Origin: Candidatus Poseidoniales archaeon
GTDB taxonomy: Archaea > Thermoplasmatota > Poseidoniia > Poseidoniales > Thalassarchaeaceae
Length of the DNA: 61,320 nt
Direction: 5' to 3'
Assembly: GCA_003602515.1 (NCBI GenBank)
Contig: QQSB01000062.1
Location: forward strand, 1-61,320
Made by a program: the position numbers and the translations under genes. The notes under the pieces were generated by a model. It did no database searches, was not told the DNA's origin, and saw only the letters and a program-made list of their open reading frames with translations. Of the stretch, positions 332 through 32,894 are shown one piece after another (the stretch's first letter is position 1; every line of letters begins with the position of its first letter).

Positions 332-796
332 CTACCTATACGACTTCTGCCACTTCTTTCGAGCACCGCGCCCCATTTGATGCTTGGGCTCCTTTCTGCG
401 TGGATCGTTGACCAGCATCTTCCTCTCGAACCTGACGAACTCGTCCCTGAGCTCCTCGTCATCGCCCTCTGCGCCGTCGTTGTACTTCACCAGGCCACGA
501 GCTATTGCAGTACGGATTGCGTCGACTTGCCCCATCTGCCCGCCTCCCTTGACGTCGATGGAGATGTCCACTCTGTCGATTCTATTCATGGCCTCTGCGA
601 TCCTGATTGGCTCCAGTGCTTTTCTCCTGGCTAGCTCGGGTTCCATGATGTGGATTGGTTGGCCGTTGACCCTGACCCTTCCCTTCCCGGCCTTTATGGT
701 CGCTCTGGCAATGGCAGTCTTTCGCTTGCCGCTAGTGTTTACCACCTTGGGAGTCTTCTTCTTGGCCAATTCACTCGCCTCCCCATCTCGATCCAT
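332..796 (-). CDS. rpsI: 30S ribosomal protein uS9
   Basis: Small-subunit ribosomal protein; its basic C-terminal tail reaches the P-site tRNA. The product shows the uS9 pattern GKRKTAIARA near residue 23, RVRVNGQPIH, the GGGQMGQVDAIRTAIARGL block and the conserved end KKWQKSYR. The coordinates use the ATG at 796, which overlaps the end of rplM by 26 bases. A TTG at 769-767 lies one base past the rplM stop and eight bases behind a GGGGAGG ribosome site, and starting there removes an unusual acidic leader (MDRDGEASE). The TTG may therefore be the true start. Same operon as rplM and rpoN. Confidence 0.95.
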   Translation of the reverse strand: MDRDGEASELAKKKTPKVVNTSGKRKTAIARATIKAGKGRVRVNGQPIHIMEPELARRKALEPIRIAEAMNRIDRVDISIDVKGGGQMGQVDAIRTAIARGLVKYNDGAEGDDEELRDEFVRFERKMLVNDPRRKEPKHQMGRGARKKWQKSYR

Positions 797-1238
797 CGAC
801 TCCCAGATGGGAGCTTATCTCGCCGAGTCTGACGTACTTGTTAGGGGTATTGCGAATGATGTGCTCGGTTGATCCCCACTCGTGCCCCTCTGGTAGCTCT
901 TCTTTGGAGAGGTTCTGCGGGGTTCCTATCATTACTCTGAGGTCCCTTAGCGCCCCCCTGCCGCTGCTATTCTTCTGGTATGGGAGCATCCCTCTCACTG
1001 TCCTCTTGATTATCTTGTCAGGCATCCTTGGGAAGAAAGGCCCCTTCCTTGCATGGTTGAGTTTGTACTTTGCCCTGTAGTCGCTGAGGACCTTGGTCCT
1101 GGGGCCCGAGACTATCGCGTCCTCGGCGTTGATGATGATGACCCTCTGCTGCTTTCCCGACTTCCTGGCTGAGATCATCTCTTTGGCGACCTTGCTGGCT
1201 AGGCGACCTAGTATCTTGTCAGTGGCATCGAAGACCAT
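771..1238 (-). CDS. rplM: 50S ribosomal protein uL13
   Basis: Large-subunit ribosomal protein uL13, about 155 residues. Homology begins at MVFDATDKILGRLASKVA, the typical uL13 opening, followed by VIINAEDAIVSG and the IIKRTVRGMLPYQKNSSGR block. The open frame continues upstream to 1382, but those extra 48 residues overlap rpl18e and do not resemble the family, so the ATG at 1238 is chosen; it lies seven bases after the rpl18e stop with no strong ribosome site in the gap. Second gene of the eL18-uL13-uS9-RpoN operon. Confidence 0.95.
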   Translation of the reverse strand: MVFDATDKILGRLASKVAKEMISARKSGKQQRVIIINAEDAIVSGPRTKVLSDYRAKYKLNHARKGPFFPRMPDKIIKRTVRGMLPYQKNSSGRGALRDLRVMIGTPQNLSKEELPEGHEWGSTEHIIRNTPNKYVRLGEISSHLGVDGSRWGGE

Positions 1239-1712: not shown

Positions 1713-4700
1713 TCATATCCGGAACCCATCGTCTTCCTCGGCATCGTCGATGCCAGCGAACCTGACATTGCCCTCTGCATCGACAAATTGGCCGGCCTTG
1801 ACAGATGGGCCATATAGAGAAGACTCGGCTACTGATGCTCTGTTTAGCAAGCTGTCTCCGAGTGAGCTGTTCATCCTTCCAATCATCGACTGGAAAATTT
1901 GGATGGCCCGGTCCCTCTCCTCGGAGCCGATCTGATGATCCGAGTATCGGGCCTCCTCGAAGATGGAGAAGAACATGTCTAGCTCCTCGGGTGGGACTAT
2001 CCCCCCCAGCATGTTGTTGATGACGTCCTCGAACTCTCTCGTGGTCTCGAAGACCTTCTTCATCGCACCCCTCATTCTGAAGTACTTGATTAGGTCCTTG
2101 TAGCAGGAGAATATGGCCTCGATATAGTTGTTAGAAGCCTTGAGTGACATCAGGGCGTCAGTCAGTATTCCCCGGAGGACCTCTACCTTTCGTCGCTCTC
2201 TATAGTTGTTGTACATCATCGCGCCAACTAGTGTCGCAGTGGAAAGGGAGATCCCGGCGAGAACTAGGACTTGAGTCGTCCAGAGTCCTCCGCTGCTAGC
2301 GGACGGTGGCTCTCCGAGTTTTATCTCGGGAGTGCTGTTCAGCCACTGCTCGACGAAGTATGGCTTGTTCGCATCTGCCGATTCGAAGTGCACCAGTACC
2401 CTCCATTTCCCTCCTGGAGCAGACCATTCTGGGTGCCCTGGGATGAGTTCGCCCGTGTATGGGAATGAGAAGTTCGCAGAACCCCTCTCATTGGTGATGA
2501 ATATCTCGACTCGCTCTGTCTGCCATCCAGACCCGTTCCAGAACTGCCTGTGGAACTCGACCCTCTGGCCCTCCACTGTGAGGTCCAATCGGTCCCTGAG
2601 AATCGCGACCTCTCCGGCGATGATTTCTCCCTCCTGGTATCCAGTCGGGCTCGACCAGTGTTCCTTGAGCAGGATGTCCACCTTGCTTCTGACGAGGACC
2701 TCGATATCCGCGATGGAGCTGTTTAGCACCGGGTTCGGCTCCAGTGCCTCGTAGTCGCACCCACCGGGCACGTACTTCTCTGGTTCGTATGCGACTCTTA
2801 CCGTCCTGAACCCTTCGAGATTATTGCCGCTTGGCTCGACGCCCCTCCTGCTTGGATTGTCTTCAGGGTCGGCTGAGTACCAAACGAACTCCCCCGTCCC
2901 ATCGCTGGTGAAGGCCGTCGCAATTGGCCTGGTGTTTACCTGGGGGTCGAGATAGATGTTGACGCACTTGCCACCGACTGGCTTTCCGTTTGACTGCGAT
3001 AGCTTGGCATTGATGTGGAACGCCTCTTTGAGGTACAGGACGTCGAAGGTTGATCCATTGGGGAAGGTGTAGGTCAGGTAGTCGGACCTGAAGGGACCGA
3101 TTTCGGAGACGTCTATTGTGGAGTTCGAGAATACCGGGAAGAACATCGTCTGTGTCTTGTTCTTGTACCTGTAGCGATCGTTATTCAATGGGTCCCACGA
3201 GTTGTACTCTACCTTCACCTTGGCCATTCCCGCATCCACTCCTGCCAGGGGGCAGTTGATGTCGAAGAAGCCGTTCTCATCTGTTGCCCCGGGTATGCAC
3301 GCCTCTATGCCGGTGTCTCCTGCTCTGAATTTCATTCTGTTTTCAATCGGGTCGAATATCATCGATCCCATCTCGAAGGTAACTCTGATTTGCCTGTTGG
3401 ACAGGTTTCCTCCTAGCTCATCGGTTAGCTGACCGGTGACGAGCATTGGCTTCTCGAGAATCTGGCCGGTTTCAGGATCAATCTCCGATGTGTAGACTAT
3501 CTGCTGATCGACATCCAGTTCGGTATTGCCGATCAGGCTGAAGCCGTCTACCTGGAACTGGAGGACCTTCCTGTAGTGATCGCTATTCATTACGGTCACG
3601 CAGGGATCCCATGCCCCCGATGTGGATAGCATCCCTGAATCAAGGGGTTCGCAGCCCTCGTGAGGGAGGTTCTGCTCGAACCTCAGAATCACGTTAACAG
3701 GACCGAAGCCATCCGGGAGGAAAGAGAAGGGGTCATCCTTCAGCAGCTGAGGGTCTAGGTATTGGCCGTATCCAATTGAGCCCGAGGCAGGGCACTCTAC
3801 GGAGACAATCTGCCTGTGTGTCCTATCTTCGAAGTCGATTCCTTCGAAGATGACCGTTACGTTGCCTCCCAAGTCGTTGCCACCCGGGCTCTGCATCTCT
3901 CCTGCACAGCTATTCAGCACCTGTCCTCCGTCTTTTTCGAATGGGGTCCTGTTGTCATCAGTTACAACAGCGGTGAATTCCCATAAATCACCATTCGATC
4001 TGATGTTTGGACTCGTGCTTTGGACGTTGATATATGTCCTAGAGACGACCCATAGGTTGACCTCTGCATGGCTTCCTTGACGACGTTCGTCGCCGAGGTA
4101 TGTGAATCCGAGGGTGTAGTTCCCGAGATTCTCAATATCCGTCAGATTTACCCTGAAGCGGCCATTGTTGTCTGTGATTGAAATCCCGCTGGACTGGTCT
4201 TCCGACCATGTCCAGTTCACGGGTACCTCACGCACGGGTTGGTATGCGTTGTCTACGAGACGGACCTGGACTGAAGTGTTCTGCCCTCTGTACAACTGGG
4301 GAAGGGAGTTGAGTTCGGAGAATCCAGTTGTGCCGATCACTGAGACGTTTCCATACGCCCCTGTTGCTGCGAGAACCTGATCCTGATCCCCCGTGAAGAA
4401 GTAGTCAGATTGGCTGAAGTCTGCCCTCACCCCGTATGTGCCCGCTTGGTATTGTGACGCCCAAGCAAAGTCGTAGTCGAAGGTCGCTAGACCCTCTTCA
4501 GGCTCGGGTGGCCTATTGAATTGGGTCTCAATGGAGCCGACGAACGCTCCGTTCTGATCGAAGTCGAACTGAAGTGCAACGGTAATCGGTCGCCCGTTAA
4601 CAGAGTAGGCGGGTTCGATGGTTCTGTTCCAAACGTGTCCTCTTACCCTAATTTCCTCTCCGGTGAAGACCTCGGGGACAATCTCGCATCGGACCTCGCT

Positions 4701-7700
4701 GGATGCTACCAGTGGATCGACCGGCCCGCATGGAGGAGAGTCGAAATCTGCTCCATTCTGCAGTGTAATGGTCCAATGGGTCCCATTGGCGGTCAGGAAG
4801 GGGGAAAGCGCCCCCGCAGCAATTCCCGAAAGCGCTTCCGGGGTCCCGTCCCAGAGGATTGGGTATGACTTCCCCAGGCTTGCATCCTCGAACGCGATTC
4901 CTGCGCTTGCTAGAGAGGGGGCATGGAAAAGCGCGCGCCAAGCGCCGAAGGACGAGCCGGTGAACTGGGTCGCATCCCAGAAGTATACGGGTCTGAACGA
5001 GGGTGCGAACATGTCTGCCTCGATGTACATCCTATGCATTGCGCGAATGAAGAATGTGTCAGTCTTGGATTCCTCCAGATGAGCCCATGGCCACTCGTAG
5101 GAGCCATCAGAACAACTACCGAGATCTGGTCTGGCGTATCCTATGAAGCTGTAGTCTCCTACTGGGAGAGTGGTGTTCTTGTACTCATATGGAGATAGGA
5201 CGGAATGGGATCCAACAGGGTTCAGAGGTGTGCATGGGTTCCAAACAATCTCCTCGTACCCACCTGTAGGTATTCCATCCCCGTTGTCAAGAAGGGAGTT
5301 CCACTGAACTTGCTCCCAAACATCCAATGACTGGTTGTATGCAAGAGAAACCCAACCTCCTGAGTCAGCCCTGTACCCATTTCCATATCCATCGTACACT
5401 GTCGGTTCTGTGATGTTCCCGAACTGAGTTCCAGAGTCGCTGATGGTGAAGGAGACAGGCGCGAACGCTAGTCTGTTGTCGAAAATTCCCCTATTATAGT
5501 CCGCTGTGTAGTGGACCTTGAAGTCGAGTTTCAGAGGCTGCTCGTCAGCTCTGAATCTTTGTCCGGCGACGAACCCTATGGTGGTGTTAGCCCTGACTTC
5601 CACTGGGAATCCGGCGTCGCCGATTCCATCTCCGTCGGTATCCGACAGAGTCGAGCTGTAATCGTGGATGAACATCTCTGTGACTTCTGAGTATACCTCA
5701 TAGGTCGAGTTCGGCCCTACGTCGATGTCCTCTGGGAACAGGAATTGTCCTACGATGTACTCTCCATTGGCATTGGTCAGTACGTCTATCGTCTCGATTA
5801 CCGAGGTCCCGTTCTCAGAGTATCTGATGTGTACCTGCACTGGAAGGTCTGGAGCGGGGACGAATCCAGTATCGTCAAGCCAGAAAACCGAGCCGTTGAA
5901 TATCGCCGGTGTTGTCTCGTCCAACCACAGAACTGGTTGAGTGTTCAGAGTGATCCTAGTGGGTATCTTGTCATCATTATCAAGGACGCCATCGTTATCG
6001 GAATCCCAATCGGAACTCAATCCAGAGGCCTCCTCGATCTTGTTTGCCGGAGTTGGCCAATCTCCTGAGGAGGGGTTGTTCCAATCGGCGTCTTCCCTGC
6101 CGTCATTGTCGTCATCTACATCGAAGTAGTCTGGTCCTGTTGAGTTGTTCGTTGGATTGGCTAGGCCGACCCCTCCTCCGAAATCGTCGTGATCCCATGG
6201 GTTCGTAGATTGCACTCCGAACCTCGAGGGCCAAAGCATCACTTCGTCTTCGTCCTTCATGCCGTCGTAGTCGTCGTCGTCATCCAAGTCATCCCTAATG
6301 CCATCGTTGTCGTGATCCCATGGTGCTATCGGGAAGTTCAGGCAGCAGGTGTCATCAATTGGATCGGCCGTACCATTCGTGTCGTTTAGGTTCTGGAGCT
6401 CTAGTGAGTTGGGGATTCCATCTCCATCCCAATCGTCGTCAGCCCAATTCAAAATCCCGTCGTTGTCGTGGTCCCAAGGACTCTGCTCCTCACCCGTGAA
6501 GCATCCTGGGAAAGCCTCCTGGGTTTCATCCAGCAAACCATTGTTGTCATCGTCTGGATCCTCTCCATCGGGTACTCCATCGTTATCGTTATCCACGTCA
6601 TAGTACTGGGGGAATAGGAGTGATTGGCCTAGGACCCCGCGATCCCATACAGCCTGGTAAATCCCATCATCATCCGGGTCGGTGTCTAGCCCGTCGTCGT
6701 CGTTATCCTCGCAGTTGCTACCAGTGAAGTAGTATGGCTCCTCCACGGTAGCGTCGTCATCGAGATCGTCGTTGCTGTCTACTTCGAAATAGTCCCAAAT
6801 TCCATCATTGTCGTCGTCCACGTCAAAGTGATCGTAGACTATGTCCCAGTCATCATCGAGATCGTTTGTGTTGTTGTACATACAATTCGGAGTCCAAGAA
6901 ACCTCGGGCATAGGTTGACCACAGTCGATGTCTGGGTCGACATCATCGTTCAACTCATCAGCAATCTCGTCTGGAAAGAAGTTGCCATTGTTATCGGAAG
7001 TCCATTGGAAGAATTGGAATTGAGTGACGCCGAGGTATGCTATCCAGAGGTCTCTGTTGTGCTTCATGTCTACATAAGTGTAGGCGACTGATGGTGAAGG
7101 GTTACTGGTTGGGTCGAAAGTGAACCAGAAGCAGTTCATGTCACAGCTTCCCAACCCAGTTGGATGATTGGTGCCGTCATACGCTCCGTCATCCCAGTCG
7201 ACATCTGGCCTTGAGCTATATGGGACTGTGAAGGATTGGCCCCCTGACTGTGTTGGAGTCAGGAGGGGCGCCTTGAACGCGTATGCGTATATGTGTCCGC
7301 AGAATCTTTCTTGGGTGGCTGAGAGGATTACTGTACCACAGGAGTTCCCGTCAAGCGTCCCCCCCATCTTGACGTCATCGACGTCCAGGATCCCGTCGTT
7401 CCCCTCGTCCTGGTCCCACCAGTCGGGCATTCCATCGCCATCTTGGTCCACATCGATTCCATTGACCAACGAGTCTCCATCGTCATCGATGTCGAAGAAG
7501 TTGCCACCGTTGTAAGGGCTCCACTTCATCATCAGGAACCAGTACATCTCGGGGATGATGCCACTGATTGTGTCTAGTGAGGTCGGGTCATACCCGTTGT
7601 AGTCCAGCATGAAGCTGTTATCCTCATTGAACGGGTTGAACCCCCATGTGAGATTCCAGTAGTAATTGGGGACTGCCGCATATGCACCGCTGTCCTCGGA

Positions 7701-9623
7701 GCCGTCGATAGCGTCCCCGTCGCTCTGTGGCCAGCTATTACCATAGAAGTTGTCTGTGTTGTCGGTGTCGACCACCCCGCAGTTTCCATCATCGGGATCG
7801 TAGTAGTCATTGATTCCGTCATTGTCGTCATCCCAGTCTTCATCATTCGCCAGTCCATCTCCATCCACGTCGGTATCGATGTCGTTTGTTCCGTCGTCTC
7901 TGTACTTCGATCCGTTTAGTTCGTGGAGGTCGGCATCGTTGTCCAAGTCGCAGTCGGGGTCGATGTCGAGCCAGTCGAGGATCCCGTCCCCGTCGTCGTC
8001 CATGTCCACCCAATTGTTCAGCCCGTCTCCATCCCAGTCATTGAATCCGGTGTAGGAGGTTCGCCATAGCACGCATTTGTCGCTGGGGTTCTGTGGGTTC
8101 GGGTTGGAGACGCTAGCGCAGTCCCAAGTGGCAACCTCTGCCGATGAGTTGAGTGGGTAAGGGTCGTATTCGTTTTCCAGGCCGTCGTCATCTAGGTCCC
8201 ATGGTTGCGAACCGCCCATCAAATTGTCAGGGTTATCGGATCCACCCATGTCGGTATCTAGCCAGTCCCACACCATGTCGTAGTCGGCATCAATGGACCT
8301 GAACCTGTCATCGTCTAGGTCCCCGTCATAGTCTATTTCGCAATCGATCCCAGGGGTCTGGATATCGACAACAGAGCCGTTGAAGACTTCGGTTGGGTAA
8401 TCTCTCTGTCCGTCCCCGTTGGTGTCCAGTTGTATGCATGAGTCTGGGATTCCGTCATTGTCGTCATCGACGTCGTACATGTCTGCAAGGCCGTCATTGT
8501 CATCATCAGTATCTGACGAGTCAGGGGAGCCATCATTGTCGTTGTCTGGATCGAGGAAGTTTGGAATTCCGTCTCCGTCGAGGTCACCATCGACGATTTC
8601 TGTGAATGCCTGCTGTCTCGGGTGCTCGAGGGCGTGGAGAGCTACGTAGTCGAGGCCGTCCACGTATTCGGCGTAGTCCTCCGGGTCCCATCTCTCCCAG
8701 TCGTCCCAGAGAATGTCTGAGTCAGAGGTGATGAGCGCTGTCTGAGTAGAATCCCAAGGATGGATATCGTCTATGTCCAACACCTCATCGTTGTCATCAT
8801 CCAGATCGAAGTAGTCCTGAATGCCATCTGAGTCGAAGTCGCATGGCCAGACGAACTGGTCGATTCTACCGTCGTTGTCATCGTCCTCGTCGTATGATCC
8901 TCTTCCGGAGCCATCGATGTCTTCGTCGGTAATGCCATCGTTGTCGTGGTCCATTGGGTTCTGATCTACCAGGTAGTTGAATCCAACAGCCTGACCGGTC
9001 CAGGGATGAATAGTGGTGGGGTCCACGTGACGATCCGAGGAGACGTTCCATGGGTCGTTTCCTTGGGAGTAGTCCACTGGTCCCTCAAGGATGCCGTCGT
9101 TGTCATCGTCCCAGTCGAACTCGTCTCGGATTCCATCGTTGTCGTGATCCAGTGGGTCTGTTCCGTAGCAACCATCGAATCGCTCTATCAGATCGTTGAT
9201 CCCGTCGTTGTCATCATCCAGATCGTTCAAATCGTCAATGCCATCGTTGTCGTGATCCTCTGTGTTGGTCTCCTCTAAGAAGAAGCCATAGCTCGGATCG
9301 AGGGTCAACGCTGAGGTATCCGAGACCTTCCCGTAAATAGCGGCTGGGTCATTATAGAATGGATCGTGGAATGCTGCCGCTTGGAACGGATTTGTGGCTG
9401 CGGGTTGACTTTGGCTTTCTCCCTGCACTGGACCTCCAAGCTGCTCAAGTTGCTGGTAGGCCGTTCTCTTTGGTGTGTCATCGCTTCTCGTCCTCTCGGG
9501 AGAATCGTCCGAACTGGGCATGATCGAAAGCTGGGTACTAAGGAGCATCAGTGCGATAATCGAAATCGCTGGTATTATTCTCTTGTTTGTGTCTCTCTCT
9601 TTCTTGCTAGTCATGCAAATCAC
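1713..9623 (-). CDS. giant membrane-anchored surface protein with Asp-rich repeats and DUF4129-like tail
   Basis: A 2636-residue exported protein. An N-terminal hydrophobic segment (about residues 16-31, IIPAISIIALMLLSTQ) serves as signal or anchor. Residues about 120-1220 are a field of at least 30 D-x-D-x-D-G motifs such as DHDNDGI and DDDNDGIND, like thrombospondin type 3 calcium-binding repeats. Beta-rich Ig/CNA-B-like segments follow. Near residue 2455 is one transmembrane helix (VLVLAGISLSTATLVGAMMY), then about 170 cytosolic residues. That tail has TTREFEDVI and FEEARYSDH, which recall DUF4129 domains. The start is a GTG at 9623 with GAGG seven bases ahead; an in-frame ATG is at 9614. 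Adhesion, matrix contact or calcium-stiffened stalk are inferences. Confidence 0.85.
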   Translation of the reverse strand: MICMTSKKERDTNKRIIPAISIIALMLLSTQLSIMPSSDDSPERTRSDDTPKRTAYQQLEQLGGPVQGESQSQPAATNPFQAAAFHDPFYNDPAAIYGKVSDTSALTLDPSYGFFLEETNTEDHDNDGIDDLNDLDDDNDGINDLIERFDGCYGTDPLDHDNDGIRDEFDWDDDNDGILEGPVDYSQGNDPWNVSSDRHVDPTTIHPWTGQAVGFNYLVDQNPMDHDNDGITDEDIDGSGRGSYDEDDDNDGRIDQFVWPCDFDSDGIQDYFDLDDDNDEVLDIDDIHPWDSTQTALITSDSDILWDDWERWDPEDYAEYVDGLDYVALHALEHPRQQAFTEIVDGDLDGDGIPNFLDPDNDNDGSPDSSDTDDDNDGLADMYDVDDDNDGIPDSCIQLDTNGDGQRDYPTEVFNGSVVDIQTPGIDCEIDYDGDLDDDRFRSIDADYDMVWDWLDTDMGGSDNPDNLMGGSQPWDLDDDGLENEYDPYPLNSSAEVATWDCASVSNPNPQNPSDKCVLWRTSYTGFNDWDGDGLNNWVDMDDDGDGILDWLDIDPDCDLDNDADLHELNGSKYRDDGTNDIDTDVDGDGLANDEDWDDDNDGINDYYDPDDGNCGVVDTDNTDNFYGNSWPQSDGDAIDGSEDSGAYAAVPNYYWNLTWGFNPFNEDNSFMLDYNGYDPTSLDTISGIIPEMYWFLMMKWSPYNGGNFFDIDDDGDSLVNGIDVDQDGDGMPDWWDQDEGNDGILDVDDVKMGGTLDGNSCGTVILSATQERFCGHIYAYAFKAPLLTPTQSGGQSFTVPYSSRPDVDWDDGAYDGTNHPTGLGSCDMNCFWFTFDPTSNPSPSVAYTYVDMKHNRDLWIAYLGVTQFQFFQWTSDNNGNFFPDEIADELNDDVDPDIDCGQPMPEVSWTPNCMYNNTNDLDDDWDIVYDHFDVDDDNDGIWDYFEVDSNDDLDDDATVEEPYYFTGSNCEDNDDDGLDTDPDDDGIYQAVWDRGVLGQSLLFPQYYDVDNDNDGVPDGEDPDDDNNGLLDETQEAFPGCFTGEEQSPWDHDNDGILNWADDDWDGDGIPNSLELQNLNDTNGTADPIDDTCCLNFPIAPWDHDNDGIRDDLDDDDDYDGMKDEDEVMLWPSRFGVQSTNPWDHDDFGGGVGLANPTNNSTGPDYFDVDDDNDGREDADWNNPSSGDWPTPANKIEEASGLSSDWDSDNDGVLDNDDKIPTRITLNTQPVLWLDETTPAIFNGSVFWLDDTGFVPAPDLPVQVHIRYSENGTSVIETIDVLTNANGEYIVGQFLFPEDIDVGPNSTYEVYSEVTEMFIHDYSSTLSDTDGDGIGDAGFPVEVRANTTIGFVAGQRFRADEQPLKLDFKVHYTADYNRGIFDNRLAFAPVSFTISDSGTQFGNITEPTVYDGYGNGYRADSGGWVSLAYNQSLDVWEQVQWNSLLDNGDGIPTGGYEEIVWNPCTPLNPVGSHSVLSPYEYKNTTLPVGDYSFIGYARPDLGSCSDGSYEWPWAHLEESKTDTFFIRAMHRMYIEADMFAPSFRPVYFWDATQFTGSSFGAWRALFHAPSLASAGIAFEDASLGKSYPILWDGTPEALSGIAAGALSPFLTANGTHWTITLQNGADFDSPPCGPVDPLVASSEVRCEIVPEVFTGEEIRVRGHVWNRTIEPAYSVNGRPITVALQFDFDQNGAFVGSIETQFNRPPEPEEGLATFDYDFAWASQYQAGTYGVRADFSQSDYFFTGDQDQVLAATGAYGNVSVIGTTGFSELNSLPQLYRGQNTSVQVRLVDNAYQPVREVPVNWTWSEDQSSGISITDNNGRFRVNLTDIENLGNYTLGFTYLGDERRQGSHAEVNLWVVSRTYINVQSTSPNIRSNGDLWEFTAVVTDDNRTPFEKDGGQVLNSCAGEMQSPGGNDLGGNVTVIFEGIDFEDRTHRQIVSVECPASGSIGYGQYLDPQLLKDDPFSFLPDGFGPVNVILRFEQNLPHEGCEPLDSGMLSTSGAWDPCVTVMNSDHYRKVLQFQVDGFSLIGNTELDVDQQIVYTSEIDPETGQILEKPMLVTGQLTDELGGNLSNRQIRVTFEMGSMIFDPIENRMKFRAGDTGIEACIPGATDENGFFDINCPLAGVDAGMAKVKVEYNSWDPLNNDRYRYKNKTQTMFFPVFSNSTIDVSEIGPFRSDYLTYTFPNGSTFDVLYLKEAFHINAKLSQSNGKPVGGKCVNIYLDPQVNTRPIATAFTSDGTGEFVWYSADPEDNPSRRGVEPSGNNLEGFRTVRVAYEPEKYVPGGCDYEALEPNPVLNSSIADIEVLVRSKVDILLKEHWSSPTGYQEGEIIAGEVAILRDRLDLTVEGQRVEFHRQFWNGSGWQTERVEIFITNERGSANFSFPYTGELIPGHPEWSAPGGKWRVLVHFESADANKPYFVEQWLNSTPEIKLGEPPSASSGGLWTTQVLVLAGISLSTATLVGAMMYNNYRERRKVEVLRGILTDALMSLKASNNYIEAIFSCYKDLIKYFRMRGAMKKVFETTREFEDVINNMLGGIVPPEELDMFFSIFEEARYSDHQIGSEERDRAIQIFQSMIGRMNSSLGDSLLNRASVAESSLYGPSVKAGQFVDAEGNVRFAGIDDAEEDDGFRI
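5955..9262 (-). repeat. coding repeat field of Asp-rich calcium-binding motifs
   Basis: Within the giant surface gene, short units encoding D-x-D-x-D-G-(I/V)-x-D recur irregularly, mostly 12-40 residues apart and sometimes in tight runs of two to four. On the plus strand this appears as repeated tcgttgtcgtgatc- and tcgtcatc-like words. The units are diverged rather than identical, so they reflect protein repeats and not a recent tandem array. Bias toward GAC/GAT and GGN codons opens long empty frames on the opposite strand. Confidence 0.85.
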
Positions 9624-9731: not shown

Positions 9732-10163
9732 TCAATCTCTGTGATATGATGAGCCCCTGTTGATTTCGGTGGCCCTGTAGAGTTGCTCCATCAGCAAAGC
9801 AGCAGCCATTTCATGGGTGAAGGTGAGTTGTGAGAGGGAAATGGTTTGGCGGGCTGACCTTTTCAGTTCCTTGCTGAAACCAGCATGAGGGCCCACTGCT
9901 AGATTTGTTGTCTGGCCCTCCAGAATAGCAGTTTTGAGCCAATTTGCCATTTCCTCACTGCTCATTTTAGTTCCTCCCTGATCTAGAAGGACTAGGCGAC
10001 CAGATAGGTTTGAGAGTTCTGATTCGTATTTGTTGCTGTCTGTTGCTTCAGAAAATTGGACTGATATCCCCCTTGATCTGACTCTTTTCTGATACCCACT
10101 GACGATGGCAGCGATGTCCCTATCTTTCGGCATGCTGTCAAGGTGGACAATGACTCTTCCCAT
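9732..10163 (-). CDS. rlmH: 23S rRNA pseudouridine-1915 N3-methyltransferase, RlmH family (SPOUT)
   Basis: SPOUT-class methyltransferase that in bacteria methylates a pseudouridine in helix 69 of 23S rRNA on the assembled ribosome. The C-terminal half carries the knot motifs: LAVGPHAGFS (counterpart of the GGPEG loop), TISLSQLTFTHEMA, MEQLYRATEI and the final SSYHRD, matching the E. coli ending YHRE. The N terminus MGRVIVHLDSMPKDRDI aligns with the family start, so the ATG at 10163 is preferred over a GTG at 10187. Length about 143 residues is close to the usual 155. It stands alone on its strand, divergent from the gene at 10237. RlmH is mainly bacterial with scattered archaeal members, so transfer is plausible. 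Confidence 0.85.
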   Translation of the reverse strand: MGRVIVHLDSMPKDRDIAAIVSGYQKRVRSRGISVQFSEATDSNKYESELSNLSGRLVLLDQGGTKMSSEEMANWLKTAILEGQTTNLAVGPHAGFSKELKRSARQTISLSQLTFTHEMAAALLMEQLYRATEINRGSSYHRD

Positions 10164-10236
10164 GTGGTCTCGTATGGATAGTGGCACTTAGGGCTTCACA
10201 AAGCATCAAGTCATTGGGCACAGGCGTCCACTCAAT

Positions 10237-27623: not shown

Positions 27624-30600
27624 TCAGAAGACGATGTCGTCGTCGTCAGACCCGGGGAGAAGGCTGCTCAGTTCAGAGAACCTTGCTAGGGCCTCCACTC
27701 TTCTGCCCCAAATGACGTAGCCTGCAACTCCGAAGAGGGAGAAGGTTGCTCCGATGATTATTGTTGGGACTGCATACCTGACGACTAGTTCCCTTCCGAC
27801 ATCGAGTGATCCCAAAGGCGATTTCATGTTCCCAATCCTCTCGATGTTGTTGTTCTCATCGGTCTCTACGATGTTGTTATCCGGGTCCACTACCACCACA
27901 ATGTCGTGATTCCCTGGCTCGACCATGTACAGCAGGGTAATTGGATCAGACAAGTCGGTATCCGACTGGCCGATGGGCATGATGGCATTGACAATCTGCC
28001 TGTACACGATATTCTCTTCTTTGCATCCGTTCCTCTTGATGTCCGACTCTGACTGGTCCTTGCACAGGATTATGTTAACATCGGTGGCATGGGCGTTACC
28101 CCTGTTTGTGATGAAAACGTTGATCGAGAGCATTTCCCCGATAGCGGCCTCCTTTACTGGAGCAACTACGCTCTCAAGGACTAGGTCTGGGGCTCTAAGT
28201 CTCATCTCGAGAATCTGTTCGTTGGTATCGCAATCCGGAGGGAGGTTGTCTGGGATACCATCTGAATTGCTATCCATAGTACAGGAGTCAGTCCAAACTT
28301 CTGTCTCATCGAAGTCCCCGCCTTGGTCGGAGGACCCATGCATAGATAGCGTCTTGATTCCCAAGTTTCTATCAGTCAGTGAAGCGTCAGGGGCGACTGT
28401 GACGATTACCACCAGCTGCAGCGTAGTGTACGGTTGCATCATTGGGAGAGTTACTGTGTTAGCAGCAGTAACATAGCAGTAATCCGGACCTTCCCCCTGT
28501 GACAACTGTTGAGTTATTTGGTTCTCTTCTTCCACGGTAAGTTCCACACATGGCTTCTCCAATGGAAATTCGGTACCGAATCCTTCCAGTAGGGCGTAAT
28601 CGATTTCCCAGGTACTCAGGGAACCAAGGCCTGGTCTTACTGACCAGGCAGTTGTTACATCGTCATAGGTGTGGTTGTGTATCGTCGGTTGGTCCTCGAC
28701 ATTACCGAAATTGGATACGTTCAGTGTGTATCTGACGATTCTACTTGGAGCAGTTGTCTTAATCTTGCTCTCAACCGTTGGATCCAGCGAGATTTGCATA
28801 TCATGGAATTCTATTATAGTGGCTCTAATTACTATCTGGTCTTGGACCTTAGTTCCCTCACACGGGTCCTCGGTGCATGGGAATGGCTCCTCGCTCAGTA
28901 CGTTGAACGTGATTGTGTACTCTCCTGCTAGAGTCTGCACAGGGACATTGATGAAAATTGGGACCGTCTGAGCCTCATCCCTATTCAATTCCTCGAACAG
29001 TATCCTGGGGATATCCATATCCCATACATGTGCCCCGCCTTGGCTATCTACAATTGACTCAATGGTGATATCGTACCTGTCCTGACCATTCCCCAGATTG
29101 GAAACTGTTGTGTTCATCTGATATGATTGTCCTGGGTAAAGGTCGACGATAGTGTCTGGGACACTCGACTCGAGTTCGTACCTCTGGACCACATTCGTCA
29201 GAATCAGGACGGAGTCTCGTACCTTTGGAGTGCCGTCCAGATGAGCTCGTACGGTGATTGATTCCCCTATCCCTGCGGTTGCATTGAATGGGGAGCACAT
29301 CTCTGCACTGACGGTGTAGGTGGTTCCGACCTGGGCCCAGTAAATGTCCTGATCTGATGAGGATGGGCTGCCTGGCCACTCAGAGAAGTCCAGGTCTACT
29401 GTCCAATGATCGAATCTCCAGGAGTTGAGGTCAGCATCTGCAGGCCTTTCCATCGGGGCGCCCGGAGTTGTGAACACGATGTGCCCAGGAGTGAAGTATT
29501 TGTTCACTTGAATTGGGAAACTAGCGCATTCTCCCGGTAGAACGTACAACTTCGTATCGCCGATATCGAAGACAATGTTCCCTGTGGTCCTGATTGAGAC
29601 ATTTATCCACAGTTCTAGAACGTCAAACGTCCCTCTATCGACAGATAAGACCGGTTCACCTGTGGACCAGCCCTTCAGATAGATTGCGAATGTTCCTGGG
29701 TCCTGGGTCTCGGGGACACTGACCTTGAGATTTCTAGTCACGGACTGTCCGGGATCAAGGGAAATACGGAGCGGGAAGTCTATTCCCCATCCGAATGGCA
29801 ATGCCCACTCATTCTGACCCTCCAAAGTAGCTGGGTCGTAGAATGCGAATGTGTCATACACGTTTCCGGTGTTCTTGATTGAGATCGAGAATACAGCTGA
29901 CTTGCCTTGCTCGACGTCTACTTGGAAGTGGCTAGTATCTAGTTCGATTCCATGAACTACATCCATCAAAGTCAGAAGGGTGAGTTTGTTTCGAATTGCA
30001 GGATCCTTTGCAGAAGTCGCAATTATGCTTATTTGAGCCAATTCGTCGTCCTTAGCTTGGTAAATCGTCGGAGTTCTGACTCGCAGATATAGTGGATCGA
30101 TGGCTCCGCCATCTAGGAAAACAGGAGTGGAGTCAAATATCGGGGTATTATTGGTCATGTAGAAAAGAGTGGCTGTCCAATTATTTGGAATCCCCTCCAT
30201 GGTTACAGTGAACGTGTCCCTAACCAGCTCGGCCGGCCCAGGAGTCGGGTTCGCGATTGTGATGTTGAAGGTTGTAAGTTCGCCGGGTTGGATAGTGTGG
30301 TAGAACGTCTCAGCGTCTGTGGGACATTCGTATGGGTACCCCTCTATGTTTGCATTTGTTTTGATTTTGTCATCACAGGCTAGCGACAGATCGACCAGCC
30401 CGGTGAGTACGTGAACATAGCATAGAGTCCACTTGTTTGCATTGGAGCCCTCCCAGTCGCATCTCTTGTCGGACCAGCCAATGTGCGCACCGCTACCGAG
30501 ATCATTTGCAAACGCAGGAGGCATGCCCCTGTCGAGATTGAAATCTGGGAATAGGTGGTGTCCGTCAGCAGTATTGCATTCTGGCTGACACATCGCTGGA

Positions 30601-32894
30601 CCGAGTTTGTCAGAGGTCCAATTTGTGACTTCCCTGACCTCCCATGGATCAAGAATTGCCGATGCTGCTGAGTTTAACGGGAATCCTTGCGGATACTTTT
30701 CGTTAGTATGGTTCAGTCGGGCATACATGATTGTCTCCTGCCACTCTGTAAAACTATAGTCGATCCAAGAAAGATGGACGTTGTCGAATGAATCTGTCAG
30801 GATTTGCGGGGCTACCGAGCTAGGTGCAAATGGGTATTCCTCGGACGCACCCTCGCATTGCTCGGGGGTCGAAATTGCACTCGAAGCAATCTGTTTTATT
30901 CCATAGGCAGGAAGTCCTTCTGGGACCCCGTCCCACTCTGCTGCCCCTCTTAATCGGAGTCTGGTATAGTATATCTCGTAGGCTCCCTCGATGTCGATTC
31001 CCCCTGTGGCACCTTCGCAACCTGGGTACAGTCTACCGTCCTGCCAAGCTAGGTGCGTGTTGCCCGAGTTATCGAGTGCAATGGAGGGGTGGAGGCTATA
31101 TGCTGGGTTGTTGGTAATCTGGGTGTCATTCACGACTACCAAATGCCCGTATCCCTGCTCGTCTTCCGAGGGTCCTAGATCTTCGACGTAGTACCCATTC
31201 TGGTTTGCCTCGGTCCCGGGGTCTCCTCTGCTCCAGCCAGGCCACGGGTTCTCCAGCAGGGAGTGAGGGTCTAGGATTGACATGTAGATCTCACGTGAGT
31301 TGTTCGTAGCTAGGTAAACCATGGCCTCGACCATGATCTCTAGTTCTGAAGAAGAGCCGGCGGTGGTTGGGAACTGATACATCTGCCCCTCAGCAGTGGT
31401 GGTTCGAGTAGTTGCACCGTTGCATGTTCTGGTATTGAGTCCCGAACCCACAGGGCACTGTGCCATATCCAGCATGTAGCTACCAACAGCCGTATCAGAA
31501 CCAGCCCAGAGCGGGTAAGGCTTGGTCTGGGCCAAAACACATGCGTCATGTGCCTGATTGATGCTCGATGTGTCGTCGTTGTCCATTGGGGTTCCACCAT
31601 ATGGGCCCTCGTCGGAAATCGGTATTACCACTCGAGTGGCATTGTCATTCCAACGATGGTCAAGGGTGGTAGGGGGGTTTGCTGCTAGTCCTTGTCTGCC
31701 CTGAATGTCTCTGTATGAGAGGCATGCCCAGGTAGCCGCTGGGCCCCAGAACTCGCTGTAGTAACCTCCATCGGCTGGGAGGTTAGTAGCCTGATTGTTG
31801 TAGACGACCTCTGTCAGCTCCCTGATTCCACCCGAGGAGTCTCCCGGGCCTAGTGGGGTGTTTCTGGGGCCTTGGCTTCCAGAGCCCCCTGTCTGATAGG
31901 CATCTGCACAGTTTCCGCTTGTTGCAGCAGCCGGCCAATTGCCACTCAGCGCATAGAGTGTCTCATACACGCTCATGTTCGCGCTGACAAGCATTGGTTT
32001 CAGACCTATGAAATACCCTCCACTGGCGAAGTTTCCTCCGTAGAATACTGCACACATGTCTGCCCATTCTGCGTTCATCGAACCCGAGGTGTCTATTGGG
32101 ACGACCATCTCAACTTGTCCGCCTCTGGTGTCGTCCCAGACAATCTGTACGAAGTCGTTGATGTCGACAGCTATGTCTGGATGGCCCTTCTGGCCAAGAA
32201 TAGGAGTCAGCAGCGTACTGTCAATCTCAACAATAACCACTCGAGCTACTTGGTCTACTGATAGCATCTTGTAGTAGATCTGTGACTGCTGGTAGTACAG
32301 CTCCAGCGGCTCGAATGAGTCCTCCCATACGATATGGGGATTATTCTCTGAGTCTACGTCAATGGCTGGCCAATCCCGATTCTGTGGATTATTTGCTACT
32401 TCGAAGTCGTTTGGTACTACGGACAGAGTTGAATCTAGTGATGCGTCTCCGTTCTGATCGTCCAGCGATGGGTCGAGAAGGGTGTACATGATCTTGTACT
32501 GCCCTGCCCTATCAGTCCAAACAACGTGAACCATGTCATCACTGTCAACAGTGACGTCTGGATGCCAAGCCCGGTGTGCTCCCGGGTCAGAAATTTGGGT
32601 CTCAGAGATCAGAGTTTCTCCTCTTGGGTCTAGCATCTTGTAATACAGGTGGTTTGTGTTCCGGCTCCAGACAACATGCACGTTTCCTTCTGAGTCGGCA
32701 TCCATGGCCATCATCCTGTCGTTGTGAACGCCGCTCTGAACAACTTCTATTGGATCTGTGACGACAATGTCACTGGCACTGGCAGGAGCCGAGAATGAGG
32801 CTAGGAGGCTGAGCAGCATCAGCATGACAATGGTCGCGCCACTCCTCTTGCTCGAAATTCCTTCCTTTTCGAAGGAACGGACGTACTGCATCAT
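27624..32894 (-). CDS. giant exported protein with propeller repeats, von Willebrand A-like region and CARDB-like domains
   Basis: A 1756-residue surface protein. The signal segment is at residues about 20-40 (MLMLLSLLASFSAPASAS). Repeats of the form HPDVTVDSDDMVHVVWTD recur in residues 50-260 and again about 600-750, resembling beta-propeller blades. Between them lies a von Willebrand A-like region with the MIDAS motif PIDTSGSMN near residue 268. Several NEW3/CARDB-like beta domains follow (STFNITIANPT-type edges, FITNRGNAHATDVNI). One helix near the C terminus (PTIIIGATFSLFGVAGYVIW) is followed by about 25 residues ending SDDDDIVF. Extracellular binding or matrix scaffolding is inferred. 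A TTTAGATTAA element lies 26 bases ahead, suggesting a leaderless mRNA. Confidence 0.85.
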   Translation of the reverse strand: MMQYVRSFEKEGISSKRSGATIVMLMLLSLLASFSAPASASDIVVTDPIEVVQSGVHNDRMMAMDADSEGNVHVVWSRNTNHLYYKMLDPRGETLISETQISDPGAHRAWHPDVTVDSDDMVHVVWTDRAGQYKIMYTLLDPSLDDQNGDASLDSTLSVVPNDFEVANNPQNRDWPAIDVDSENNPHIVWEDSFEPLELYYQQSQIYYKMLSVDQVARVVIVEIDSTLLTPILGQKGHPDIAVDINDFVQIVWDDTRGGQVEMVVPIDTSGSMNAEWADMCAVFYGGNFASGGYFIGLKPMLVSANMSVYETLYALSGNWPAAATSGNCADAYQTGGSGSQGPRNTPLGPGDSSGGIRELTEVVYNNQATNLPADGGYYSEFWGPAATWACLSYRDIQGRQGLAANPPTTLDHRWNDNATRVVIPISDEGPYGGTPMDNDDTSSINQAHDACVLAQTKPYPLWAGSDTAVGSYMLDMAQCPVGSGLNTRTCNGATTRTTTAEGQMYQFPTTAGSSSELEIMVEAMVYLATNNSREIYMSILDPHSLLENPWPGWSRGDPGTEANQNGYYVEDLGPSEDEQGYGHLVVVNDTQITNNPAYSLHPSIALDNSGNTHLAWQDGRLYPGCEGATGGIDIEGAYEIYYTRLRLRGAAEWDGVPEGLPAYGIKQIASSAISTPEQCEGASEEYPFAPSSVAPQILTDSFDNVHLSWIDYSFTEWQETIMYARLNHTNEKYPQGFPLNSAASAILDPWEVREVTNWTSDKLGPAMCQPECNTADGHHLFPDFNLDRGMPPAFANDLGSGAHIGWSDKRCDWEGSNANKWTLCYVHVLTGLVDLSLACDDKIKTNANIEGYPYECPTDAETFYHTIQPGELTTFNITIANPTPGPAELVRDTFTVTMEGIPNNWTATLFYMTNNTPIFDSTPVFLDGGAIDPLYLRVRTPTIYQAKDDELAQISIIATSAKDPAIRNKLTLLTLMDVVHGIELDTSHFQVDVEQGKSAVFSISIKNTGNVYDTFAFYDPATLEGQNEWALPFGWGIDFPLRISLDPGQSVTRNLKVSVPETQDPGTFAIYLKGWSTGEPVLSVDRGTFDVLELWINVSIRTTGNIVFDIGDTKLYVLPGECASFPIQVNKYFTPGHIVFTTPGAPMERPADADLNSWRFDHWTVDLDFSEWPGSPSSSDQDIYWAQVGTTYTVSAEMCSPFNATAGIGESITVRAHLDGTPKVRDSVLILTNVVQRYELESSVPDTIVDLYPGQSYQMNTTVSNLGNGQDRYDITIESIVDSQGGAHVWDMDIPRILFEELNRDEAQTVPIFINVPVQTLAGEYTITFNVLSEEPFPCTEDPCEGTKVQDQIVIRATIIEFHDMQISLDPTVESKIKTTAPSRIVRYTLNVSNFGNVEDQPTIHNHTYDDVTTAWSVRPGLGSLSTWEIDYALLEGFGTEFPLEKPCVELTVEEENQITQQLSQGEGPDYCYVTAANTVTLPMMQPYTTLQLVVIVTVAPDASLTDRNLGIKTLSMHGSSDQGGDFDETEVWTDSCTMDSNSDGIPDNLPPDCDTNEQILEMRLRAPDLVLESVVAPVKEAAIGEMLSINVFITNRGNAHATDVNIILCKDQSESDIKRNGCKEENIVYRQIVNAIMPIGQSDTDLSDPITLLYMVEPGNHDIVVVVDPDNNIVETDENNNIERIGNMKSPLGSLDVGRELVVRYAVPTIIIGATFSLFGVAGYVIWGRRVEALARFSELSSLLPGSDDDDIVF

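Follow-up and report, generated by a model that had tools for sequence, protein, structure and literature searches.

The window, the whole 61,320-nucleotide stretch of DNA that was analysed, encodes a giant protein of 2636 residues (Table 1), which together with its orthologs is referred to here as type A. A first-pass annotation made from the letters had reported this chain at 1713–9623; these coordinates were exact, the gene lies on the minus strand, and the opposite (plus) strand of the same interval is interrupted by many stops. The annotation had described a field of at least 30 D-x-D-x-D-G motifs followed by Ig-like domains, one membrane helix and a cytosolic tail resembling DUF4129, and this domain order was borne out. 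Ig-like sequence after the repeats was recovered as a Big_1 match at residues 1782–1831 (E 3.5e-7), though its 30.7 bits lie under the cut-off of 34.9. MG4 and related Ig-like models gave further matches below cut-off at ~1780–1850, and the Pfam scan found no family match over most of the stretch from ~1230 to 2440.

Table 1. Features of the gene for the window protein and its neighbours, with positions in the window
Feature	Residues	Positions	Strand	Basis or remark
Whole gene	2636 aa	1713–9623	minus	GTG start, stop included
N-terminal hydrophobic segment	16–34	9522–9578	minus	Hydropathy; putative Sec-type signal or anchor
Asp-rich calcium-type repeat field	~121–1220	5964–9263	minus	Calcium binding inferred
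Ig-like/beta-rich ectodomain	~1230–2440	2304–5936	minus	Big_1 and MG4-like matches below cut-off, ~1780–1850
Single transmembrane helix, then YRERRK	2452–2470	2214–2270	minus	Hydropathy scan and tail model
DUF4129 domain, motifs TREFE and FEEARYS		1896–2072	minus	Profile matches
Conserved C-terminal motif KAGxFx4Gx4AGx9F	2609–2634	1722–1799	minus	Comparison of A tails
Upstream neighbour, SPOUT methyltransferase		9732–10187	minus	Neighbour scan
Downstream neighbour, ribosomal protein L18e		1246–1611	minus	
Ribosomal protein L13, after L18e		771–1238		
Ribosomal protein S9, after L13		332–796		

Only two segments of the chain, at about residues 16–34 and 2452–2470, pass a 19-residue hydropathy scan, a pattern that points to a single membrane pass, a large exterior part and an interior tail of ~165 residues. 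The second of these is the one membrane helix expected before the tail. Because it is followed by YRERRK, the tail is predicted from the positive-inside rule to lie on the cytosolic side.

In total, 35 D-x-D-x-D-G motifs were counted, 34 of them within the first 1290 residues, where Asp accounts for 21.8% of the sequence; 2000 shuffles of that segment gave a mean of 1.13 motifs and a maximum of 7. When DxDxD with G, D, E or N as the next residue was taken as a loop, merging gave 33 in tandem. The commonest steps between them were 11 residues (six times) and 13 residues (five times), together 11 of the 32 steps, and the remaining 21 range from 9 to 127 residues. Runs of DxDxDG loops with steps of 11 and 13 residues, which may wrap calcium, are shared with TSP3 repeat proteins. 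However, the window protein has no match to the Pfam models TSP_3 or TSP3_bac at E ≤ 10, and its repeats are position-specific and interrupted by inserts.

To assess conservation, the window protein was compared with eight far orthologs in 40-residue blocks. Identity reached at least 0.70 in 9 of the 28 blocks of residues 121–1240 (0.70–0.84) and in none of the 38 blocks elsewhere, although the abundance of Asp inflates chance identity in the field. The field blocks at 281–320 and 761–920 are poorly kept (0.26–0.37), the membrane-helix block reached 0.28 and the four tail blocks 0.36–0.58. Residues between the loops are also fixed, for example ERFDGC and LWP.R....STNPWDHDD, so that each repeat has its own identity. 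On this pattern of conservation the field is position-specific, with inserts between repeats, and is no generic stalk.

The AlphaFold model of the field (residues 85–1240) had a mean pLDDT of 30.8, and a PDB sequence search with the window's own field returned nothing at E ≤ 0.01. A profile of the field family found 22 PDB chains at E ≤ 1. Of these, 19 belong to the cupredoxins (amicyanin, plastocyanin, a copper nitrite reductase and another blue copper protein); the remaining three either scored weakly (E 0.033 and above) or are clearly not related. The cupredoxin matches arise from an insert of the family that the window protein does not have. This insert, located at the equivalent of window residues ~281–350, is present in 43 of 66 full-length named orthologs (e.g. 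L188, L198 and L171) and absent from the window protein and the other 23. Cupredoxin_1 and Copper-bind scored over cut-off in three of five insert-bearing orthologs scanned, and a complete H..C..H..M copper pattern remains in 12 of the 43 inserts. From these sequences the insert looks like a blue-copper domain that was gained, decayed and lost.

The window protein scored below the 24.8-bit cut-off of DUF4129 (Pfam PF13559) as a whole protein (15.3 bits, E 0.021), as the tail alone (20.1 bits, E 6.5e-4) and in a genome search (22 bits, E 2e-4). Despite this, the assignment can be made because the tails of its orthologs match. The first set comprised the window tail and 11 other A tails, and all 12 matched DUF4129 at E ≤ 1 (best 1.3e-9); in a second set of ten named loci every A tail matched at E ≤ 8e-4, six of them over the cut-off. 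A profile built from nine non-A tails, each of which matches DUF4129 itself, recovered the window tail in its genome with 93.1 bits (E 1e-26) and matched the A profile with 99.8% probability. Sensitive profile comparison therefore did find the proposed relation, and by this measure the tail is a genuine DUF4129 domain, located C-terminally after the last membrane helix.

Identity of the window tail to 11 relatives across both families that carry A (f1 and f2) is 43–72%. All eight positions of the C-terminal motif are invariant in 12 of 12 A tails and seven of these in 45 of 45, and the motif was not seen in the tails read of the paralog B or of the outgroup family f3. A structure model of the tail (mean pLDDT 67.2) consists of a long helix through the membrane and four helices, with the motif modelled at low confidence as a beta hairpin. 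Against solved chains the tail profile gave no match better than E 0.25. VIA-align matches, several HEPN-type bundles among them, reached at most Z 8.5, within the range of common helical bundles, and since bundles below about Z 13 are possibly meaningless in this program, no structural relation is claimed for the tail.

A relative is encoded in 256 of 296 candidate stretches of the genome collection, the best 80 of the 256 being the named loci; where the tail is closest, the locus carries the label Marine Group II, Poseidoniales or Ca. Thalassarchaeaceae. The organism of the window is assigned to Ca. Thalassarchaeaceae (Marine Group II). In 66 of the 80 the A frame measures 2576–2794 residues, and 14 are shorter. 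A tail match is present in 115 of 118 genomes of the class. Of the 97 genomes sampled from f1 and f2, 85 have the A-type tail (E below 1e-30) and 84 hold two or more tail matches, the second being B-type among the matches listed (about E 1e-11 to 1e-18). The 12 genomes without A include three marked as 90–91% complete (G020, G032 and G049), and a few real losses are therefore possible. The gene neighbourhood is also kept. Of the named loci whose flank is long enough, 51 of 64 have the SPOUT gene upstream on the same strand, no more than 1.5 kb away (0 of 1 in the second family). Downstream, under the same limits, 72 of 76 such loci have L18e, and 71 of 76 have L13 and likewise S9 (5/5, 5/5 and 4/5 in the second family). 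DUF4350, MoxR and DUF58 are not among the neighbours of the window gene.

Across the phylum the tail was matched in 69 of 146 genomes, and 15 tail loci were fetched from other Thermoplasmatota. A full row of giant, DUF4350, MoxR and DUF58 genes is present in six of the 15 (L234, L235, L236, L237, L242 and L247). In L246 the row is present but the contig ends after MoxR, and in L238 and L245 a short tail protein accompanies MoxR and DUF58. Four loci (L233, L239, L241 and L244) hold the tail gene without a cluster, only DUF58 is shown at L240, and only 0.8 kb of downstream sequence is available at L243. A home-made transglutaminase profile matched none of the nine operon-linked outside tail proteins, and among the 14 outside loci with a tail protein only L239 had a transglutaminase match. 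L239 (6067–13134, minus), L243 (844–8337, minus) and L244 (898–11055, plus) encode further giant DUF4129-type proteins, one with a transglutaminase and 30 DxDxDG motifs and two with 18–19 such motifs and weak tail scores.

In f3, a tail gene heads five of the six DUF58 clusters read (L090, L119, L120, L121 and L122) and is followed by DUF4350, MoxR, DUF58 and a small membrane gene; in the sixth (L118) a run of N precedes the DUF58 cluster. Cluster genes were identified by Pfam for L090 and for the DUF4350 protein of L119. One of the five cluster heads, at L090, is the transglutaminase giant L081. It had been supposed that DUF4129 usually sits beside bacterial transglutaminase-like membrane proteins. 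A protein combining the two domains does exist in the window genome, but the best-supported context of the tail is the MoxR/DUF58/DUF4350 cluster and not a transglutaminase alone.

The window genome itself (G000) has two strong MoxR matches and two DUF58 matches, and its two DUF58 clusters are both unlinked from its tail genes. One consists of DUF4350-like, MoxR and DUF58 genes, the other (the set of L104 and L106) of DUF4350-like and DUF58 genes with no MoxR between them. The DUF4350-like genes beside both DUF58 genes were assigned by homology. One of the two proteins matches Pfam DUF4350 (PF14258) below cut-off; the L104 protein has no match to that model itself, and its L106 ortholog does. 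DUF58 has exactly two matches in 58 of 60 class genomes, with four in G060 and one in G072; a control search also detected it in Haloferax volcanii. As A's own gene is unlinked, its connection to these genes rests on homology and co-occurrence.

The A profile was closest to the operon-linked, transglutaminase-free giants of other lineages: seven of these scored 76–115 bits, against 67–83 for five B paralogs, 56–69 for six operon-linked f3 giants of ~2000 residues and 26–59 for three transglutaminase giants. The unlinked L233 tail reached 98 bits, yet has no cluster. A tail tree, unrooted and with long branches, contains a split (91/88 support) that places A with six of the nine operon-linked outside tails and three unlabelled rows, and the other three operon-linked tails, the f3 tails, B and the transglutaminase types on the other side. 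Pairing A with one of the DUF58 sets by trees was abandoned, as the branching was inconsistent and one DUF58 row, L122, proved to be a wrong ORF (branch 3.92).

A single Transglut_core match was present in the window genome, in the same frame as a DUF4129 match over cut-off. This protein, B, is a chain of 2986 residues with TSP3_bac-like repeats (22.4 bits, cut-off 25), Transglut_core over cut-off at 922–1039, an Ig-like region, one membrane helix and DUF4129. The transglutaminase partner that had been sought elsewhere in the genome was thus found and, given that repeats, Transglut_core, helix and DUF4129 share one chain, is by domain content a paralog built on the same plan as the window protein. 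We take the transglutaminase positions compared to be the catalytic Cys, His and acidic residue. In all five B proteins read (L005 (P0003) and L054–L057) the Cys is kept, the position two before the conserved Trp holds Thr or Ser where outgroup L081 has His, and the third, acidic position is variable. With its catalytic His replaced, B is probably no active transglutaminase and may be a pseudoenzyme. In G000 the genes for A and B are on separate contigs; in G002, a genome in one contig, some 670 kb separate them. Among f3 giants, TSP3_bac reached 265 bits in L081 and had no match in L079, and weak transglutaminase scores were obtained for the ~2000-residue L079 (E 0.076) and L085 (E 0.0052). 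Directly upstream of B in the three genomes with that flank read is a protein of 970–986 residues (L086 1985–4936, minus; L087 11065–14022, plus; L091 8766–11675, plus), and the one scanned gave only weak Ig-like matches, below cut-off.

The possibility that A is itself a degenerate transglutaminase was rejected, as the window protein had no Transglut_core match at E ≤ 10 and the home-made transglutaminase profile gave −0.4 bits (E 1.3). TgpA-type proteins, which we take to end in DUF4129, offer a further comparison. TgpA of Pseudomonas aeruginosa, for which the available text names DUF3488 and TG domains (PMC3507681), shares an outside domain and a membrane anchor with the window protein. The latter differs in its giant ectodomain and in lacking both a transglutaminase domain and the multi-helix TgpA_N part; no TgpA_N/DUF3488 match was found, and there is only one hydrophobic segment at each end.

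With moderate confidence, the window protein is proposed to be the surface-exposed, DUF4129-tailed subunit of an archaeal DUF4129–DUF4350–MoxR–DUF58 membrane machine. In this proposal the chain would be exported via its N-terminal signal, the repeat field, folded around calcium, would form a stiff and specific ectodomain carried by the Ig-like domains, and the one helix would anchor the chain in the membrane. On the inner side, DUF58/DUF4350 would be the docking site of the DUF4129 bundle and of the A-specific C-terminal motif. The MoxR ring and the vWA-like DUF58 would act as NorQ does with NorD, the ring spending ATP to assemble, remodel or export the complex or its cargo, and the tail would by analogy be the point at which the machine grips its surface subunit. 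DUF58 is presumably the vWA family of the arCOG01314 system. In the source texts available, the NorQ ring is modelled as plugged by the NorD vWA domain, with NorD MIDAS residues needed for the target (PMC9976466), and DUF58 is associated with vWA proteins (PMC12067865).

Makarova and colleagues predicted a secretion or membrane-remodelling complex from DUF4350, MoxR, vWA and Ig/S-layer genes (PMC5898192). This arCOG01314 system shares with the clusters of A's relatives the DUF4350 and MoxR genes and a large Ig-like surface protein, and has a vWA protein where DUF58 stands here. According to its Table 1, the great majority of the Thermoplasmata covered lack arCOG01314, and the portion of the description available mentions neither a DUF4129 tail nor a calcium field (PMC5898192); in the present case the surface gene is unlinked. 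In the Bifidobacterium PFNA operon (pkb2, fn3, MoxR ATPase, duf58 and tgm), MoxR and DUF58 likewise accompany a large beta-domain surface protein and a transglutaminase-like protein. However, the FN3 protein is separate and secreted, a kinase is present, and no calcium field is described in the available text (PMC8430577).

The proposal draws on the DUF4129 identity of the tail, on the nine of 15 outside loci with a full or partial cluster, on the five of six f3 clusters headed by a tail gene, on the profile scores and the tree split that group A with operon-linked tails, on the two DUF58 matches of nearly every class genome and the two or more tail matches in most f1 and f2 genomes, and on the presence of both DUF58 clusters in the window genome. 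Against it stand A's unlinked gene, with ribosomal-side neighbours kept in two families, the absence of MoxR from the L104/L106 set, the three of nine operon-linked outside tails that fall with the f3 tails across the split from A, the high-scoring but clusterless L233 tail among four clusterless outside loci, and the transglutaminase giant L081 that also heads such a cluster. The unlinked gene would also suit a free-standing, calcium-stabilised adhesin or stalk for particle attachment, its DUF4129 tail a leftover anchor belonging to no machine. Thrombospondin genes in Marine Group II have already been interpreted as adhesion genes, in the text available (PMC6461757), and CglD and MtsD, two gliding/cohesion models, give B and the outgroup transglutaminase giant scores far under their cut-offs. 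Yet the tail is kept in both families with its invariant extra motif, which makes a leftover anchor unlikely; two DUF58 genes persist in nearly every class genome, and the window protein itself has no NCBIfam match at E ≤ 1. An adhesin without a machine is consequently regarded as unlikely.

The first-pass annotation had suggested that the chain could signal, as a stalk outside joined to a domain inside. The join itself holds, with outside part and DUF4129 tail in one chain, but the same join occurs in other DUF4129-tail proteins and the repeat field is no generic stalk. A receptor in which outside binding of calcium or a ligand alters the DUF4129 bundle would fit the single-pass union of a large conserved ectodomain and a conserved, predicted-cytosolic bundle. 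In Pfam at E ≤ 1, however, the window tail matches only DUF4129, hence no kinase, receiver or other known output domain, and to our knowledge no signalling role of DUF4129 is known. Confidence in the tail model is middling, and its structural matches fall among common helical bundles; such a receptor appears very improbable. A distinctly doubtful variant combines signalling with the machine as a calcium-gated transmembrane coupler: the thousand-residue calcium field would be linked mechanically through one helix and the DUF4129 bundle to the MoxR/DUF58 ATPase, such that the state of the outer field would govern ATP-driven remodelling and be governed by it in turn, in an integrin-like, inside-out manner. 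Least expected is a role for the window protein as substrate or structural partner of B, with B cross-linking it on the cell surface. A and B do co-occur in most sampled genomes, their tails are homologous and the Transglut_core of B is over cut-off, but all five B proteins read have Thr or Ser at the catalytic His and the two genes lie far apart or on different contigs, leaving little chance of such a role.

According to the text available, no planktonic archaea of the ocean surface are more abundant than Marine Group II (PMC6461757), and A is widely kept among them. The function of the DUF4350–MoxR machine is only predicted in the available account (PMC5898192); tying A to the DUF4350–MoxR–DUF58 cluster would supply this machine with a definite surface subunit, a pair of paralogs and a candidate docking tail. 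The parts and the machine are already known or predicted. Among the titles and abstract openings listed for DUF4129, MoxR/DUF58, TSP3 and Marine Group II, in a literature collection with few subscription papers, none names this giant protein. Within that literature, the new elements are the size and conservation of a calcium-type field on a DUF4129 subunit, a gene unlinked from the cluster in a genome that retains both DUF58 sets, a C-terminal motif specific to A, and the pair of paralogs A and B. The window also encodes a further large surface protein of 1756 residues (27627–32894, minus strand), with a CARDB match over cut-off.
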